A stretch of 8,812 nt of DNA from the NCBI GenBank assembly GCA_024206195.1, contig JAAGZO010000569.1, forward strand, positions 1 through 8,812. The letters run 5' to 3'. Numbering within the stretch: the first letter of the stretch is position 1; each line of letters opens with the position of its first letter. The position numbers and the translations under genes were made by a program. The notes beneath the pieces were generated by a model. It saw only the letters and a program-made list of their open reading frames with translations, did not search any database and had not been told where the DNA came from. Source of the stretch: a bacterium (GTDB lineage: Archaea; Nanoarchaeota; Nanoarchaeia; Woesearchaeales; UBA10216). This document shows positions 2,663-7,398 of this stretch, piece by piece.

Positions 2663-2824
2663 ATGAAAACACCTAATTGTTCAATATGTGAATGGCATAC
2701 AGAAATTGATTACACAGTTATAGGAGTTCGCCTATTATGTTCTGCACAAGGACGTAAATGGTGTTCAGAAGTCTACAACAATAAATCATGTATCAAATTA
2801 TACAAGGAGAAGGAAAATGAATAA
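2663..2824 (+). CDS. Small Cys-rich protein, possible zinc binder
   Basis: A 53-residue protein from ATG 2663 with cysteines at 6, 9, 26, 34 and 43 (CSIC pair first), so a small metal-binding fold is plausible. I do not recognise the family. The open frame extends upstream to a TTG at 2573, inside the nuclease gene, but that route passes through the GC-rich hairpin and has no ribosome binding site, so ATG 2663 is preferred. Even there only a weak GGA (2652-2654) is available, partly inside the hairpin, unlike the strong sites of its neighbours. The stop overlaps the next gene by 8 bases. Confidence 0.6.
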   Translation: MKTPNCSICEWHTEIDYTVIGVRLLCSAQGRKWCSEVYNNKSCIKLYKEKENE

Positions 2825-3011
2825 ATATACAAAAACAATAGCAGTAAGACTTGATCCAGAGGCGTACGATCAAGTTAAAGAAGTTGCCAAAAAAAGAAAA
2901 ATGTCTACGTCGCAGTATATTCGTACTATGGTTACATTAGAAATACCGAAGCTGGATATACAACAAACAATAGTAGAAGACTTATTTAATTCGTCAGATA
3001 TTTCATTTTAA
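2817..3011 (+). CDS. Ribbon-helix-helix (CopG/Arc-type) DNA-binding protein
   Basis: A 64-residue protein whose residues 6-40 show the ribbon-helix-helix pattern: a short strand with alternating residues (KTIAVRLD), a first helix (PEAYDQVKEVAKKR), a turn (KMS) and a second helix starting TSQYIRTMV. Such proteins bind operators as dimers of dimers, the strand lying in the major groove. The C-terminal 24 residues form an acidic tail. AAGGAGAAGG just before ATG 2817 is a strong ribosome binding site. Placed between the Cys-rich gene and ssb, it may control this early operon. I see no toxin gene beside it, so an antitoxin role is less likely. Confidence 0.7.
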   Translation: MNKYTKTIAVRLDPEAYDQVKEVAKKRKMSTSQYIRTMVTLEIPKLDIQQTIVEDLFNSSDISF

Positions 3012-3365: not shown

Positions 3366-3542
3366 ATGACACATTTAAAAAACAAAGCACCGGAAAGACC
3401 TGCCAGATACTTCAACGAGATTAACGTAATAATGGCAGAGATAGACTGTGCCGATACAGGATTTGAAAGAGAATACATAACAATAGCCAAAGCAGACTTG
3501 ATTAAAATCTTGAATGAGCATTTCGACAAGGAGCAGATATGA
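3366..3542 (+). CDS. Hypothetical small protein
   Basis: A 58-residue ORF from ATG 3366, with AAGGAG at 3354-3359 placed 6 bases upstream and an ATGA overlap with the next gene at its stop. The protein (MTHLKNKAPERPARYFNEIN..., ending ILNEHFDKEQI) is soluble and probably mostly helical. I recognise no family or motif. Coding support comes from the good ribosome binding site, the coupling to both neighbours and the ordinary amino-acid make-up. Confidence 0.65.
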   Translation: MTHLKNKAPERPARYFNEINVIMAEIDCADTGFEREYITIAKADLIKILNEHFDKEQI

Positions 3543-3901
3543 ACAACGATAAAATAAAAAAACAAATAAACGGACATTTACAATTTATAGAATCGTTTGA
3601 ACGACAAATGATGGGCTTTAGGCAAGTATGCGTAAAAAATAATAAACTGCTTACAATTTCAACGATGCAAGGAATGGTGGATAGTGATTTAGAGAACCGA
3701 TGCAAAAAGATAAGAAATCTAATACAAAAAGAAGCAAGCTGGCGGGATTGCAGAAAAGGCAATCCCGATAAGGATGGCACTTATATTATTTACACAGCAG
3801 ACGAATCAACAGCAATGTGTCATTTTAGTAACGAAACGTGGCAGGGCTGGCGTAATGTTTTAGCGTGGATGCCAATGCCAGATAAGCCAGATTTCATTTA
3901 A
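3539..3901 (+). CDS. DUF551-like small phage protein (paralogue 1)
   Basis: A 120-residue protein. The N-terminal 65 residues are charged and helical. The C-terminal half carries a degenerate DUF551-like pattern, WRDCRKGNPDKDGTYIIYT (68-86) and AWMPMPDKP (109-117), corresponding to the 'WISVKDRLPxxG ... THWMPLPxPP' pattern seen fully in the gene at 5600. DUF551 proteins are common in phages; their function is unknown to me. Its last 11 codons are almost identical in DNA to those of the gene at 4251, so the two share a C-terminal module. GGAG at 3531-3534 overlaps the end of the previous gene and serves ATG 3539. The stop TAA (3899-3901) touches the leader of the next gene. Confidence 0.7.
   Translation: MNNDKIKKQINGHLQFIESFERQMMGFRQVCVKNNKLLTISTMQGMVDSDLENRCKKIRNLIQKEASWRDCRKGNPDKDGTYIIYTADESTAMCHFSNETWQGWRNVLAWMPMPDKPDFI
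3743..3767 (+). repeat. Perfect 9-bp hairpin inside the DUF551-like gene
   Basis: CGGGATTGC (3743-3751) and GCAATCCCG (3759-3767) are exact reverse complements around the 7-base loop AGAAAAG. It lies in the codons for RDCRKGNPD. The matching place in the paralogue at 4251 has no such palindrome, so it is not a feature of the family. Confidence 0.6.
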
Positions 3902-4250: not shown

Positions 4251-4607
4251 ATGAAATTAACAAAAAAAGAGTTGGATAAAAAAGTTTCAGATTGGTACAT
4301 GGAAAAGTATAGTAAATGGCATATTGATGAATTAGATAAATTAAGGAAATTGGCTAAGTATTTACAAAATGATACCAGCATTTTGCATACGCATGAATTA
4401 GGTGATGGATGGCGAGATTACAGAAAAACACACATTCCTAAAGATGGAAATGAATATCTATTATTAACTCGTACTGGTATTGTTTCGGGCTGGTATTGTG
4501 ATGACGAAGATGGATGTTGTTATGTGTGTTATGATGATGAATTTACAATAGAATTAAAAGACATACTTGCGTGGATGCCAATACCAGATAAGCCAGATTT
4601 CATCTAA
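4251..4607 (+). CDS. DUF551-like small phage protein (paralogue 2)
   Basis: A 118-residue protein with a charged helical N-terminus (1-40), the shared HTHEL segment (46-50), then a DUF551-like half: WRDYRKTHIPKDGNEYLLLT (54-73) and AWMPIPDKP (107-115). Three clustered cysteines (C89, C90, C93; plus C83) sit in an acidic patch. The C-terminal codons are nearly identical to those of the gene at 3539, and the leader and HTHEL segment match the Cys-rich gene, so it combines modules of both. AAAGGAG at 4239-4245 lies 5 bases before ATG 4251. Function unknown. Confidence 0.7.
   Translation: MKLTKKELDKKVSDWYMEKYSKWHIDELDKLRKLAKYLQNDTSILHTHELGDGWRDYRKTHIPKDGNEYLLLTRTGIVSGWYCDDEDGCCYVCYDDEFTIELKDILAWMPIPDKPDFI
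4378..4405 (+). repeat. Repeat arm C (direct copy, in DUF551-like gene)
   Basis: Arm C pairs with 4208-4235 over 28 continuous positions with no mismatch and three G-U pairs (4229/4384, 4232/4381, 4211/4402). The core at 4386-4400 is identical to that of arm A. The core centres lie 171 and 173 bases apart (4049, 4220, 4393). Confidence 0.85.
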
Positions 4608-4709
4608 TTGGGGTATATCCGAACTATCGATTTGAGTAAATTTTTTTAACCTAAATATTGGAATATGTCTCATTAGAAAGCAGTTTAAATATTAAAATTG
4701 GAGGTTACT
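4608..4709 (+). other. Longest intergenic gap; weak promoter-like sequence
   Basis: This AT-rich gap of about 100 bases is the widest in the window. TTGAGT (4632-4637) with AATATT 16 bases downstream (4 of 6 consensus bases each) is a possible but weak promoter. The T-run (4641-4647) has no stem before it, so I do not call a terminator. TTGGAGG at 4698-4704 is the ribosome binding site for the glycosidase gene. The gap is consistent with a separately expressed cargo gene. Confidence 0.3.
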
Positions 4710-5603
4710 ATGATTAGAACAATTATAATGTGGGTATGGCAAAGACTCTTCCCTATCCCCTGCAAGCGTGACTATGGAATAAATGTCCATCTACTTCAAG
4801 ACGAGCAGTTAAAGAAGTTAGAGAAATTAAACCCGCCACTCGTAAGATGTGATTTTAATTGGTTTTTGATAGAACCAATAGAGGGAGGGTACGATTGGGC
4901 TATGACTGACAAAATTGTATCGTTCTGTACTATCAGGCATATCAAGATATTAGCAATTATAGGTTACGCTCCTGCATGGGTTGATAACGACCTGGACGTA
5001 TTCGCTATCAAGTGGTGCAACTTCGTTAAGGCAGTCACCGAACGCTACGGAGATATGATCGATTATTACGAGATATGGAACGAGCCGAACTTACCAAGAT
5101 TCTATCAGAAGTCAATGCCGTTTTACTTTTACGCAATTCTCCAACCTGCGTATGAAATTATCAAGAAGACAAACTCTCTTGTAGTAGCCCCCTGTGTAGC
5201 CGTAATGAATCATAATGACTGGCATATCTGGATAAAATTCGCTGAATCTTATTCAGAATTTTTCGACATAATATCCTTCCATGTTTACCGAGATACAGCA
5301 CTCTCTACGATAGCAAGGATTATCTTCGGAGTACCATTCCGAGGCGGATCGTATAGTCCTATCCTCAAGACACTCAGAAAATTCAACAAACCAATTTGGT
5401 TGAGTGAAACAGGATGGAAGACCGACCATGTTACCTACCGTCAGCAGAAACAATACATAGAGTTACTACTCCACTATGTTCAGCACAGTGCCATAGAGAA
5501 GGTTGTATTTTACGACATTATGGATGCAGGAAACAGCTTTTACGGAATTATGGAGAATGATCTAACCGAGAAACCAGCGTTTAAATTTTTGGAGGAATTA
5601 TGA
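4710..5603 (+). CDS. Glycoside hydrolase, clan GH-A type TIM barrel
   Basis: A 297-residue protein with the hallmarks of clan GH-A enzymes (GH5/GH39-like). It has YGINVH on the first strand (22-27), VRCDFNWFLIEP (45-56), a strand followed by GYAPAW (85-90), YYEIWNEPN with the acid/base Glu125 (119-127), FDIISFHVY (185-193) and PIWLSETGW with the nucleophile Glu233 (228-236). Both catalytic glutamates are present and the length fits one complete barrel. The substrate cannot be read from sequence. The N-terminus IRTIIMWVWQRLF is hydrophobic but short; export is uncertain. ATG 4710 follows TTGGAGG by 5 bases; a TTG at 4698 is part of that site. The stop overlaps the next gene as ATGA. A polysaccharide hydrolase within a replication operon is unusual. 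Confidence 0.85.
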   Translation: MIRTIIMWVWQRLFPIPCKRDYGINVHLLQDEQLKKLEKLNPPLVRCDFNWFLIEPIEGGYDWAMTDKIVSFCTIRHIKILAIIGYAPAWVDNDLDVFAIKWCNFVKAVTERYGDMIDYYEIWNEPNLPRFYQKSMPFYFYAILQPAYEIIKKTNSLVVAPCVAVMNHNDWHIWIKFAESYSEFFDIISFHVYRDTALSTIARIIFGVPFRGGSYSPILKTLRKFNKPIWLSETGWKTDHVTYRQQKQYIELLLHYVQHSAIEKVVFYDIMDAGNSFYGIMENDLTEKPAFKFLEEL

Positions 5604-5944
5604 AATGGATAAGCGTTAAAGACAGATTGCCTAAAGTTGGACGGTATCTTTGTTGCAGCCAGTTTGATTTTGTTTTAGTATTATTGCGGGACCATAACTT
5701 TGGATGGGTAAACGAGGAAGATAAATATAGAGATGATTATTGGAATCAGCATATTACTCACTGGATGCCCTTACCAAACCCGCCAAAAAAGAGGAAGAAA
5801 AAGCAGGGGGAAATGAAAATGAGTATAGCAGAGAAAATATTGTTAGAATATACTGCATCAGAAAATTTTGAACAAATCAAGGATACCGATTGGACGACAG
5901 CTGAAATTATAGAGTTGTTTGATGCGTATTTTAAAAGGAGATAA
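5600..5944 (+). CDS. DUF551 protein with C-terminal extension
   Basis: A 114-residue protein. Residues 2-11 (KWISVKDRLP) and 51-60 (ITHWMPLPNP) are the two ends of a typical short DUF551 domain, a widespread phage domain of unknown function. After a Lys-rich stretch (KKRKKKQ, about 62-68) comes a separate acidic helical segment of 41 residues from an internal ATG at 5819. GGGGG at 5806-5810 lies 8 bases before that ATG, so the extension could also be made as its own peptide. GGAGG (5591-5595) precedes ATG 5600, which overlaps the glycosidase stop. AAAAGGAG at 5933-5940, in its last codons, serves the next gene. Confidence 0.75.
   Translation: MKWISVKDRLPKVGRYLCCSQFDFVLVLLRDHNFGWVNEEDKYRDDYWNQHITHWMPLPNPPKKRKKKQGEMKMSIAEKILLEYTASENFEQIKDTDWTTAEIIELFDAYFKRR
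5819..5944 (+). other. Possible internal-start peptide within the DUF551 gene
   Basis: In-frame ATG 5819 with GGGGG 8 bases upstream would give a 41-residue acidic helical peptide (MSIAEKILLEYTASENFEQI...). It begins right after the DUF551 domain and a Lys-rich linker end. This may be a small gene that lost the stop in front of it, or simply a C-terminal tail. Confidence 0.3.
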
Positions 5945-5947
5945 CAA

Positions 5948-6580
5948 ATGGCACAACGTAGAATGTTCTCAAAAAGTATAACTAATTCAAGTCAATTTTT
6001 GATGATGCCTCAGAGTTCGCAGAATCTTTATTTTCATCTTGGAATGAATGCCGATGATGACGGGTTTTGTGAGCATTTTACACTTATGAGAATGACAGAA
6101 AGCAAGCCTGATGACCTTAAAATTTTAGCTACTAAAGGCTTTGTTCAAGTGTTTGATGATAAGGTATTAATTATTAAACACTGGAAAGAAAACAACTATT
6201 TGAGGGCAGACAGGTACACCGCAAGCAAATATTTAGAGATTTACAAGGAAGAATTAGGTTGGTTGGAGTCTGGTATACCACTCGGTATACCGGCGGTAGA
6301 CACAGGTAAGGTTAGTATAGGTAAGGTAAGTAAAGAAGAGGAAATAATCTATGAAGGAGACTTTTTTAACGTCAATCAATCAAGTCATGACAGATATACC
6401 AAACTTTATCCAGGACAGAATCTTATACAACAATATAGACAAATGGGTTCTTGGTTACACGATAACCCAGGCAAGAGATACAAGAATTATAAAAGATTCG
6501 TAGGAGGTTGGTTATCAAGACAATTCAAGGACCTTAAAGAACCGCAGTACAAAAAATTTGATAAAGGACCAATCTTTTGA
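5948..6580 (+). CDS. Replisome organizer / replication initiation protein
   Basis: A 210-residue protein of the phage replisome-organizer type. Residues 1-95 hold the characteristic winged-helix N-terminus: AQRRMFSKSI, then a strand-helix with YFHLGMNADDDGF (28-40) and VLIIKHWKENNYLRADRY (73-90). The linker (about 107-140) contains the repeat GKVSIGKVSK. The C-terminal part (150-195) has the conserved segment with WLHDNPGKRYKNYKRFVGGW (169-188), typical of initiator and helicase-loader proteins. Family knowledge: such proteins bind repeats within their own gene, melt the origin and recruit the helicase. The palindromes and iterons at 6271-6330 fit this, and dnaB lies two genes downstream. AAAAGGAG (5933-5940) precedes ATG 5948 by 7 bases. 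Confidence 0.8.
   Translation: MAQRRMFSKSITNSSQFLMMPQSSQNLYFHLGMNADDDGFCEHFTLMRMTESKPDDLKILATKGFVQVFDDKVLIIKHWKENNYLRADRYTASKYLEIYKEELGWLESGIPLGIPAVDTGKVSIGKVSKEEEIIYEGDFFNVNQSSHDRYTKLYPGQNLIQQYRQMGSWLHDNPGKRYKNYKRFVGGWLSRQFKDLKEPQYKKFDKGPIF
6271..6292 (+). repeat. Tandem 10-bp palindromes, candidate initiator sites
   Basis: TGGTATACCA (6271-6280) and CGGTATACCG (6283-6292) are both perfect palindromes sharing GGTATACC. Their outermost base pair differs but keeps symmetry in both. Centres are 12 bases apart, about one helical turn, as expected for two dimers bound side by side. They lie in the linker codons of the initiator gene. Confidence 0.6.
6304..6330 (+). repeat. Iteron-like direct repeats in the initiator gene
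   Basis: AGGTAAGGT occurs at 6304-6312 and 6319-6327, 15 bases apart, with TAG/AAG following; a shorter GTAAG continues to 6330. They encode the repeated GKVSI-GKVSK linker. Replisome-organizer genes of Gram-positive phages commonly carry the origin as repeats in this region, so this is the best origin candidate in the window. Confidence 0.5.
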
Positions 6581-7398
6581 ATTACTTAGATTTATTCTCA
6601 GGTATTGGCGGTTTCAGACTCGGTGCAGAATGGGCGGGGATGAAGTTTGATAAGGAATATCATTCAGACATAGACGAGTATGCCAACAAAGTATACGCCC
6701 AACACTTTCCAAAATCGAAACAGTTGGGAGATATTACTAAAATTGATTTTGAAAAATTAAAAGACGGCAATGAATTTCTGATATCGGGTGGCTTTCCATG
6801 TCAGGATATTTCAATAGCCGGGAAAGGAGAGGGAATTGAAGGAAAAAGGTCAGGTCTTTGGTCTGAAATGTGGCGAGCAATTAGGGTATTACGACCCCGA
6901 TTCGCAATTATTGAAAACGTGTCAGCAATCACTTTTCGAGGACTCGACAGGGTTCTTGCAGACCTTGCCGAGATCGGGTACTCTGCGGAATGGCAGGATA
7001 TACGGGCAGAAGACGTGGATGCACCGCACCGGAGGGAACGGATATGGATTGTGGCGTACCCCGAACAAGCACGATGGAGAGAGAGGGCCAATGGGGAGAG
7101 AATTGGCTTTGCAATGCAAGGAAGACGGGAAGCATCAAATAACCTTAGTGACTCAGGTGAAGCACAGGGAATTATGGCCTACCCCTCAGAGCAGGGACTG
7201 GAAGGGCAAGAGCCAGAGGGGAGGGACAGAGGGCAACAGGGATTGCTTACCGAACGTAGTCAATGGCCAGTTGAACCCTCAATTTGTCGAGTGGTTAATG
7301 GGCTACCCAATAGATCACACCGGCTTAGATGTTTAGGAAATAGTATAGTACCACAAATTGCACAACTTTTATTCGAGCAAATAAAGGAGGAAATATGA
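6577..7398 (+). CDS. dcm: DNA (cytosine-5-)-methyltransferase
   Basis: A 273-residue C5-cytosine methyltransferase that adds a methyl group from S-adenosylmethionine to cytosine in phage DNA, probably to evade host restriction. Motifs in order: I, DLFSGIGGFRLG (5-16); IV, GGFPCQDIS with catalytic Cys75; VI, ENV (113-115); VIII, QDIR...APHRRERIWIVA (140-160); a short variable target-recognition region (about 163-230); X, RLRCLGNSIVPQ (249-260). All key motifs are intact; the length is at the short end for the family. It starts at TTG 6577 overlapping the initiator stop, with AAAGGA about 8 bases upstream, and ends in ATGA overlap with the helicase gene. Codons 87-253 overlap a second apparent gene in another frame. 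Target sequence unknown. Gene symbol is generic. Confidence 0.93.
   Translation: MNYLDLFSGIGGFRLGAEWAGMKFDKEYHSDIDEYANKVYAQHFPKSKQLGDITKIDFEKLKDGNEFLISGGFPCQDISIAGKGEGIEGKRSGLWSEMWRAIRVLRPRFAIIENVSAITFRGLDRVLADLAEIGYSAEWQDIRAEDVDAPHRRERIWIVAYPEQARWRERANGERIGFAMQGRREASNNLSDSGEAQGIMAYPSEQGLEGQEPEGRDRGQQGLLTERSQWPVEPSICRVVNGLPNRSHRLRCLGNSIVPQIAQLLFEQIKEEI
6824..6838 (+). promoter_or_regulatory. Internal ribosome binding site and TTG start inside dcm
   Basis: AAGGAG at 6824-6829 stands 6 bases before TTG 6836, in the frame of the overprinted ORF. The strength and spacing equal those of the normal genes here. A stop (TAG, about 6806) lies upstream in this frame, so TTG 6836 is the natural start. 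Alone it could be chance, since dcm codes GKGEG here; with the ORF behind it, it looks functional. Confidence 0.6.
6836..7336 (+). CDS. Overprinted phage protein within dcm (YDPDS/LNPxxVEWLMG family)
   Basis: A 166-residue ORF in the frame one base off dcm, wholly inside it. It reads like a complete known phage family, not a random shadow: FGLKCGEQLGYYDPDSQLLK (residues 8-27), TCQQSLF (29-35), LPRSGTLRNGRIYG (44-57), LWRTPNKHDG (72-81), LWPTPQSRDW (113-122) and the end GQLNPQFVEWLMGYP (143-157). I know this order from proteins annotated in phages as hypothetical or methyltransferase-associated, with YDPDSxSWKTxQ, WPRSGxxxxGxxY, WPTPTAxD and LNPxWVEWLMGFPxGWT. It has its own AAGGAG and TTG start. 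Function is unknown; a role beside the methyltransferase (target recognition or protection) is only a guess. Family recognition is from memory. Confidence 0.65.
   Translation: MKEKGQVFGLKCGEQLGYYDPDSQLLKTCQQSLFEDSTGFLQTLPRSGTLRNGRIYGQKTWMHRTGGNGYGLWRTPNKHDGERGPMGRELALQCKEDGKHQITLVTQVKHRELWPTPQSRDWKGKSQRGGTEGNRDCLPNVVNGQLNPQFVEWLMGYPIDHTGLDV

Follow-up and report, generated by a model that had tools for sequence, protein, structure and literature searches.

The beta polypeptide of M.EcoHK31I (YGGCCR), about 176 aa long, is nested in the gene of the alpha polypeptide in another reading frame. To go by the title of a 1995 paper by Lee, Kam and Shaw, the enzyme reportedly needs two proteins in vitro. 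A table in PMC6456624 lists M.EcoHK31I as an E. coli enzyme of the Type II restriction-modification class. Together with M.AquI it is counted among the naturally split C5-methyltransferases in the available part of a second source (PMC3404938), which places motifs I–VIII and X, along with a predicted target-recognition domain, in its large polypeptide and motif IX in the smaller one; in the M.AquI-type split, beta comprises the distal variable region and motifs IX–X. A further kind of out-of-frame protein, an HNH endonuclease (ShiLan domain), is reported for mycobacteriophage methylases in the available text of PMC11855218.

The locus analysed here consists of a C5-cytosine methyltransferase gene (A) with a second gene (B) nested inside it in the +1 frame. 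Likened by description alone, A and B appear to divide the motifs in the same way as reported for M.EcoHK31I, with I–VIII and X in one chain and IX in the other, and the gene for the small chain lies, out of frame, inside that for the large one. The two systems differ in that the available description of M.EcoHK31I has a target-recognition domain predicted in the large subunit, whereas the corresponding segment of A is predicted to be disordered and is nearly unconstrained. Searches for EcoHK31I-like loci in plasmids and E. coli matched 4, 2 and 4 records, with nothing tying any of them to EcoHK31I; these were annotated DNA cytosine methyltransferases, and the one examined was a prophage region. 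The initial annotation of this DNA knew of no description of such a pair. For this family that stands, no account of the nested pair having been found in the literature searched (most subscription journals lay outside the search), but for the kind of arrangement M.EcoHK31I is a precedent, as far as the available part of PMC3404938 describes it.

Among actinophage relatives, the type in which motif X follows B in the same frame (Empress gp69, Anthony gp79, Badger gp74) corresponds to the M.AquI-type arrangement as outlined in that source, from which the window differs in that its motif X stays in A and its B is completely nested. The ShiLan HNH endonucleases, in the part of their account available, resemble B in that they too are encoded out of frame within the gene of a phage DNA methylase, but are mobile insertions of patchy distribution with an HNH domain in the third frame. 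B has no HNH match and no known insertion, overlaps motifs VI and VIII in the +1 frame and occurs across phyla; it belongs to no Pfam family and was found in nearly all members of its methyltransferase subfamily.

Layout of the locus

The window is the whole stretch of DNA that was analysed, 8,812 nt in length, and the features of the A/B locus within it are collected in Table 1. The 166-residue ORF that the initial annotation had pointed out is present with all the strings quoted from it, in the +1 frame relative to the 273-aa methyltransferase ORF. Motifs VI, VIII and X had been said to run across the overlap; VI and VIII do so, but X starts (7333) at the stop codon of B (7334–7336), and the overlap is therefore confined to motifs VI and VIII, the variable region and the segment before X.

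Table 1. Positions of the A/B locus features in the window.
Feature	Position	Strand	Remarks
A: putative C5-cytosine methyltransferase large (catalytic) subunit	6577–7398	+	273 aa, TTG start
A motif IV (GFPCQ, catalytic Cys)	6790–6804	+	P74 and C75 invariant, Q76 nearly so
Shine-Dalgarno-like AAAGGAG, 6 nt 5' of TTG 6836	6823–6829	+	duplex -8.7 kcal/mol
B: nested gene, 166 aa, TTG start, +1 frame of A	6836–7336	+	homologues, nesting, selection tests
B-N block (YYDPDSQLLKTCQ...LPRSGTLRNGRIYG), +1 to catalytic domain in relatives	6860–7015	+	codon-permutation z
A motif VI (ENV), under B	6913–6921	+	E113 and N114 invariant
A motif VIII (HRRER), under B	7027–7041	+	H151, R153 and R155 invariant
B first WxTP block (WRTP)	7052–7063	+	T75 and P76 nearly invariant
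A residues 166–245, target-recognition domain place, wholly under B	7072–7311	+	predicted disordered; omega_A 0.78 (relatives)
B second WxTP block (WPTP)	7175–7186	+	longer relatives have several WPTP-like blocks
B motif IX-like block LNPQFVEWLMGYP, over VEPSICRVVNGLP of A	7271–7309	+	P148 and M155 invariant; hhalign on dcm motif IX
A motif X (LGNSIVPQ), starting at B stop	7333–7356	+	G254 and N255 invariant

A DnaD-like helicase loader is encoded upstream of A and a DnaB-like helicase downstream, which places the A/B locus within a phage replication module. The same module holds a 301-aa ORF (4698–5603) with weak glycoside-hydrolase similarity (PF11790, 23.1 bits against a cut-off of 21) and no PHROG match at E ≤ 0.001. 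Three other ORFs of the window (3539–3901, 4251–4607 and 5600–5944) may be diverged copies: two share the ending LAWMP-PDKPDFI, with no Pfam family scored, and the third, which has HWMPLPNPP, is DUF551 by Pfam (40 bits). A small ribbon-helix-helix protein, NikA-like (PF21983, 30.8 bits), is encoded at 2817–3011.

Protein A: a catalytic core without a constrained recognition segment

Protein A matches Pfam PF00145 (2.4e-44) over residues 1–169 only, phrog_363 (1.6e-72) over residues 1–271, and TIGR00675 with 132.6 bits, above the cut-off of 100.65. Its PF00145 catalytic domain with motifs I, IV, VI and VIII identifies it as a C5-cytosine methyltransferase, and motifs I–VIII and X are retained; what the chain does not contain is a target-recognition domain of its own together with motif IX. 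In the AlphaFold2 model of A, the ten-residue block means are 91–98 over residues 1–160, fall to 44–59 over residues 171–250, the usual place of the small DNA-reading domain, and are 79–97 from residue 251 onward (C-terminal helix). A is without a constrained or predicted-folded recognition domain.

In the segment before motif X, residues W230, E233, P234, R238, R246 and R249 are highly conserved. The stretch of residues 230–250 (window 7264–7326), WxxEPxVGRVAxGVPxRVDRL, keeps this high conservation despite motif IX seemingly lying in B, which counts against the two-chain reading of the locus.

Protein B and its motif IX-like end

No Pfam family matched B; among PHROGs it matches phrog_1008 (3.8e-21). 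Its AlphaFold2 model, which is of low confidence (pLDDT 67.9, pTM 0.46), has two hairpins, some helices and long loops. A fold search of the PDB with this model returned nothing at E ≤ 0.001 (best E 5.5), and the seven BFVD folds matched at that threshold were all unnamed, uncharacterised or methyltransferase-labelled phage proteins. Against PDB sequences, the B profile gave zero matches and Empress gp69 three weak, unrelated ones.

By its sequence, the C-terminal end of B resembles motif IX, the block LNPxFVEWLMGYPxGWT being similar to RxLTPREAARLQGFPDxF of ordinary dcm. When placed freely by hhalign on a 327-column profile of ordinary dcm proteins, the IX block of B lands on dcm motif IX, weakly (29 columns, P 0.027, probability 1.8%). 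The in-frame IX–X segment of the actinophage relatives matches dcm motifs IX–X with P 2.5e-5 and a probability of 75%, a match aided by motif X and made with a profile of few distinct sequences (Neff 1.9).

Both halves of the pair are covered by PHROGs labelled 'DNA methyltransferase', phrog_363 matching A and phrog_1008 matching B, and the label of phrog_1008 conceals that its protein is the out-of-frame partner. A third PHROG with this label, phrog_116, matches the catalytic domain at 208–377 and a B-plus-X protein at 424–496.

Homologues of B and their nesting

A single-sequence search with B returned 105 homologues among 118 candidates, and a profile built from 102 B sequences matched 5,909 of 7,984 scored candidates at E ≤ 1e-5. 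Among the 120 profile matches listed, six bore methyltransferase names and five had PF00145, the others being unnamed or 'hypothetical'.

To describe the nesting we used 246 loci, made up of the window, IMG/VR, phage records and GTDB contigs, nearly all of them found via B. B is present in 245, and the one locus without it (L092) was found via A. In 243 of the 245, a single A ORF shares DNA with B, which lies in its +1 frame; the overlap has a median of 774 nt, exceeds 1,000 nt in 29 loci and reaches 1,447 nt. The stop codon of B precedes the end of A in 83% of 219 loci, and in the rest B overruns it. The two exceptions (L094 and L205) have a change of frame farther upstream that joins the N-terminus of A to the B frame, and relative to the ORF with motifs VI–X B keeps its +1 position. 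The B frame is open in relatives, a result in favour of the initial annotation, except in L004 and L033, where it is split over two ORFs.

Carriers of B, many of them metagenome bins, include by their GTDB titles members of Gammaproteobacteria, Actinomycetota, Acidobacteria, Gemmatimonadetes, Bacteroidetes, Nitrospiria, Treponema, Patescibacteria and Bacillota. When 299 genomes were drawn at random from each of two phyla, a B match turned up in 16 from the first and 5 from the second. For the first phylum, B lay in the +1 frame of A in 29 of 30 stretches (several represent the same gene), L329 having no B at threshold; for the second, a B-N match lay in the +1 frame of a catalytic domain in all 11 stretches (six genes). 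Two of these, L387 and L391, gave weak B-N matches (25–28 bits) over ordinary long dcm genes; these were taken as shadows and rejected as carriers.

No B standing alone, without a methyltransferase, was seen among the loci examined, which included 80 of the 81 loci of one set, 80 of 121 in the GTDB set, 80 from a further set of at least 600 stretches (at least 547 encoding a relative), and phage records numbering 7 of 65 in one set and 7 of 571 in another. The initial annotation had suggested that two separate families share this DNA. Every copy of B examined overlies a methyltransferase and no homologue was found outside dcm, which removes the reading of B as a separate family; this absence of stand-alone copies is no refutation of B itself, because of the selection tests described below.

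B is tied to one methyltransferase subfamily. Among methyltransferases chosen by phrog_363, B (at least 39 bits) accompanies 18 of the 19 that reach the A-type C-terminus and none of the 49 that stop short of it (two gave 17–18 bits), a split that is partly circular because the A-type model was built from loci found through B. Ten of these 68 loci come from genomes picked for B, and without them the counts become 12 of 13 versus 0 of 45. By an independent criterion, a phrog_363 match extending to position 309 or beyond with the B-picked genomes excluded, B occurs in 12 of 16 loci and is absent from L265, L268, L271 and L276. The diverged methyltransferase of L276 keeps a degenerate LNPSFAAAMMGFPPEW IX-like block in the +1 frame, and the B profile matches the place of B there with 22.5 bits (E 2.6e-4); L276 was excluded from the B carriers, and the LNPSFAAAMMGFPPEW block is perhaps a relic of B.

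Individual copies have entered the databases under various names. Paenibacillus phage Shelly gp56 is B nested in dcm, and its annotators had noticed the nesting: the entry is named a hypothetical protein and bears the note 'g55 internal gene'. The copy of phage Bloom carries the name DNA cytosine methyltransferase.

Selection on the nested frame

B is a real protein-coding gene under purifying selection. Permuting synonymous codons of A in the window put a mean of 7.6 stops into the B interval, which stayed open in 0 of 300 permutations, and the same procedure across loci gave P < 0.05 in 232 of 244 and not in 12; these figures are partly ascertained, because B intervals run from stop to stop by definition. 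Substitution tests for selection on B are independent of this ascertainment.

The +1 geometry makes codon position 3 of A position 2 of B, and position 1 of A position 3 of B. For 11 independent pairs of loci with at most 10% divergence, A positions 1, 2 and 3 change at.044,.018 and.151 upstream of B (986 codons) versus.090,.028 and.045 in the overlap (2,318 codons; Fisher 9e-23). Position 1 is faster than position 3 in 10 of 11 pairs within the overlap and in 0 of 11 upstream. Identity over the overlap in these close pairs is 93.5% for B and 89.7% for A. When 27 pairs of 1.2–25% divergence are taken (pairs with too few codons dropped; L039–L049 and L040–L050 are duplicates with identical counts), the codon-position effect persists (p 1.4e-37) and is less uniform, with position 3 slower in the overlap in 18 of 27 pairs, B more conserved than A in 17 of 27, and overlap identities of 81.2% for B and 79.2% for A.

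The reversal follows the extent of B. Along A (18 pairs, 219 loci), the ratio of position 3 to position 1 change (p3/p1) is 2.6–4.1 up to the PCQ motif, passes through 2.2, 1.6 and 1.12 to 0.66 on entering B-N, rises to 2.12 near motif VIII (60–80 codons past PCQ), lies at 0.43–0.66 over the recognition region and is back at 3.67 beyond the B stop codon, where the reversal ends. In an omega test that classed mutations by their effect in both frames (11 pairs, kappa fixed at 4), omega_A and omega_B were 0.15 and 0.86 upstream of B, 0.20 and 0.34 in the B-N zone (71 substitutions), and 0.78 and 0.17 in the recognition zone. The B-N zone is therefore dual-coding, with purifying selection in both frames as expected of overlapping genes, and clear constraint in the recognition zone falls on B alone, A being hardly held to more than staying open. 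The initial annotation's central proposal, a second conserved protein out of frame inside dcm with selection on both frames and synonymous change in dcm reduced over B, is borne out by these results.

Codon choice in A follows the needs of B at single sites. Where the VEWLMG of B is encoded, the Arg codon of A is CGA or AGA (xGA) in 123 of 123 loci versus 41% elsewhere in A, and the next Asp, Asn or His codon of A ends in T in 123 of 123 versus 47% elsewhere; the count covers only the 123 loci that fit a motif pattern. Scored against synonymous permutations of A, B-N had a median z of 2.8 for the nested loci (n = 10), 3.7 for the contiguous loci of actinophages (n = 21) and 0.2 for ordinary dcm genes (n = 17 of 26 listed; 9 on the other strand were dropped). 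The loci are not all mutually independent, and three of the 10 nested ones (the window, L008 and L017) are in the profile training set, so that the window's z of 5.1 is inflated; the seven nested loci outside the training set gave 2.1–3.8.

Could B nevertheless be a mere shadow of the methyltransferase, a frame opened by conserved residues of A and codon bias? We regard this as very improbable. In its favour, A does force some of the likeness to B: 728 of 732 synonymous permutations still match the B profile at E ≤ 10, the best reaching 86 bits (real B: median 147, lowest 61), and one of the 17 ordinary dcm genes (L286) exceeded its own permutations with z 2.5 in a frame without a stop. A shadow does not, on the other side, account for omega_B values of 0.17–0.34, the fixed codons at the VEWLMG site, a reversal of codon-position rates that ends at the B stop, or the higher identity of B than of A in close pairs. 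The shadow reading is largely refuted, barring an RNA- or DNA-level constraint that mimics +1 codon periodicity.

Motifs IX and X change frame among actinophage relatives

A catalytic domain was found in 38 of the 39 actinophage-type loci (not in L382). B-N occupies the +1 frame of the catalytic piece next to it in 37 of these 38, none being seen in L381, and L364 and L365 contain two copies each. The placement of motifs IX and X is variable. L347 has the arrangement of the window, with IX in +1 and X in the catalytic frame; both motifs are in +1 in eight loci (L345, L348, L349, L352, L353, L376, L377 and L380), both in the catalytic frame in 26 of the 39, so that only B-N remains in +1, and both in the third frame in L344 and L381, with only X scored in L346. 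Many of these phages are close relatives, and the counts of arrangements are for that reason not counts of events.

The initial annotation had taken the two frames to carry signatures of separate proteins. This finds no support: A and B are probably not unrelated proteins, B looking like the small domain (target recognition plus motif IX) of the same enzyme, and in actinophages the motif IX block can share one frame with motif X, or with motif X and the catalytic domain together. Mycobacteriophage Empress gp69 can be read as B followed by motif X, and residues 6–248 of its 249 match phrog_1008 (profile positions 70–326 of 329). In Empress-type Mycobacterium phages (L345 1464–3073, and L348) even the catalytic domain passes from one frame to another close to motif IV, and pieces of one enzyme therefore lie in three frames. 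Gordonia phage McKinley gp4 (L344 2744–3151), deposited as a DNA methyltransferase, is the B frame, and the catalytic ORF under it is without annotation.

The 26 loci in which only B-N remains out of frame indicate that B-N must do more than carry motif IX. They can also be cited for the view that the nested gene B is genuine but serves a function of its own, as a regulator, an anti-restriction protein or an anti-methylase, and is no structural part of the enzyme, as can the want of any solved fold matching B at E ≤ 0.001 and the weak match of its motif IX when taken alone. We consider a separate role unlikely, given that B ends in a motif IX-like block that stands in frame with motif X in actinophages, that the recognition segment of A is unconstrained and disordered in the model, and that B was never seen without A in the loci examined.

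Translation of B

B is predicted from its sequence to be translated from TTG 6836. The duplex energy of the AAAGGAG before this codon compares with a control mean of -1.9 kcal/mol, although the conserved GKG residues of A may force part of the signal. Start positions of B differ among loci: in 220 loci there are 128 B-frame start codons 40–46 nt past the PCQ codon, and their mean Shine-Dalgarno energies (-5.2 to -5.4) are better than the control value (-1.9), an effect that conserved residues of A may again force in part. The B frame is open beyond the start of the A ORF in 18 of the 220 loci.

Alternatively, B could be produced fused to the N-terminus of A by programmed ribosomal frameshifting and not free from an internal start. 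ORFs that join the A N-terminus to the B frame do exist (P0085, P0101, P0162, P0169, P0176, P0208, P0216, L094 and L205), but they are few among those seen and could be sequencing errors. The cluster of 128 starts with Shine-Dalgarno energies better than control, a B-coding signature that begins downstream of the 40–46 nt start point, and the deposition of the Shelly copy as an internal gene all speak for an internal start, and make frameshifting improbable.

Discussion

We interpret the A/B locus, with a probability of roughly 75%, as a two-polypeptide C5-cytosine methyltransferase whose subunits are encoded in two frames of the same DNA and whose target is read mainly by B. A would be the large domain, bearing the cofactor and catalytic motifs I–VIII and X and a loose linker at the place of the target-recognition domain. 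B would form the small domain, a recognition segment of B-N and WPTP repeats ending in motif IX, and its translation in the +1 frame would begin internally, at the TTG 6 nt behind AAAGGAG. We infer that A and B assemble into one enzyme, which would methylate DNA at a target recognised chiefly by B.

The novelty lies in how large and widespread the A/B family is, in dual coding proven at the level of codons, and in motifs IX and X turning up in different frames among relatives. On balance, we lean slightly towards a wider reading in which the catalytic and DNA-reading halves overlie each other in two frames in bacteria of many phyla and in their phages, frame-changing indels in the WPTP repeats would redistribute IX and X between the subunits, and the family would be among the largest prokaryotic nested gene families.

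Long same-strand overlaps are generally considered rare and mostly young. The A/B overlaps extend to 1,447 nt and occur in many phyla with thousands of members, so that both frames can be compared. The identity of B corrects the label of a large family, phrog_1008, whose members are now hypothetical or misnamed methyltransferases. The function of the hidden subunit is directly testable through changes that are synonymous in A, and recoding such a gene for expression would abolish B. Finally, the two-subunit model could explain why some phage and prophage C5-methyltransferases seem to lack a target-recognition domain.
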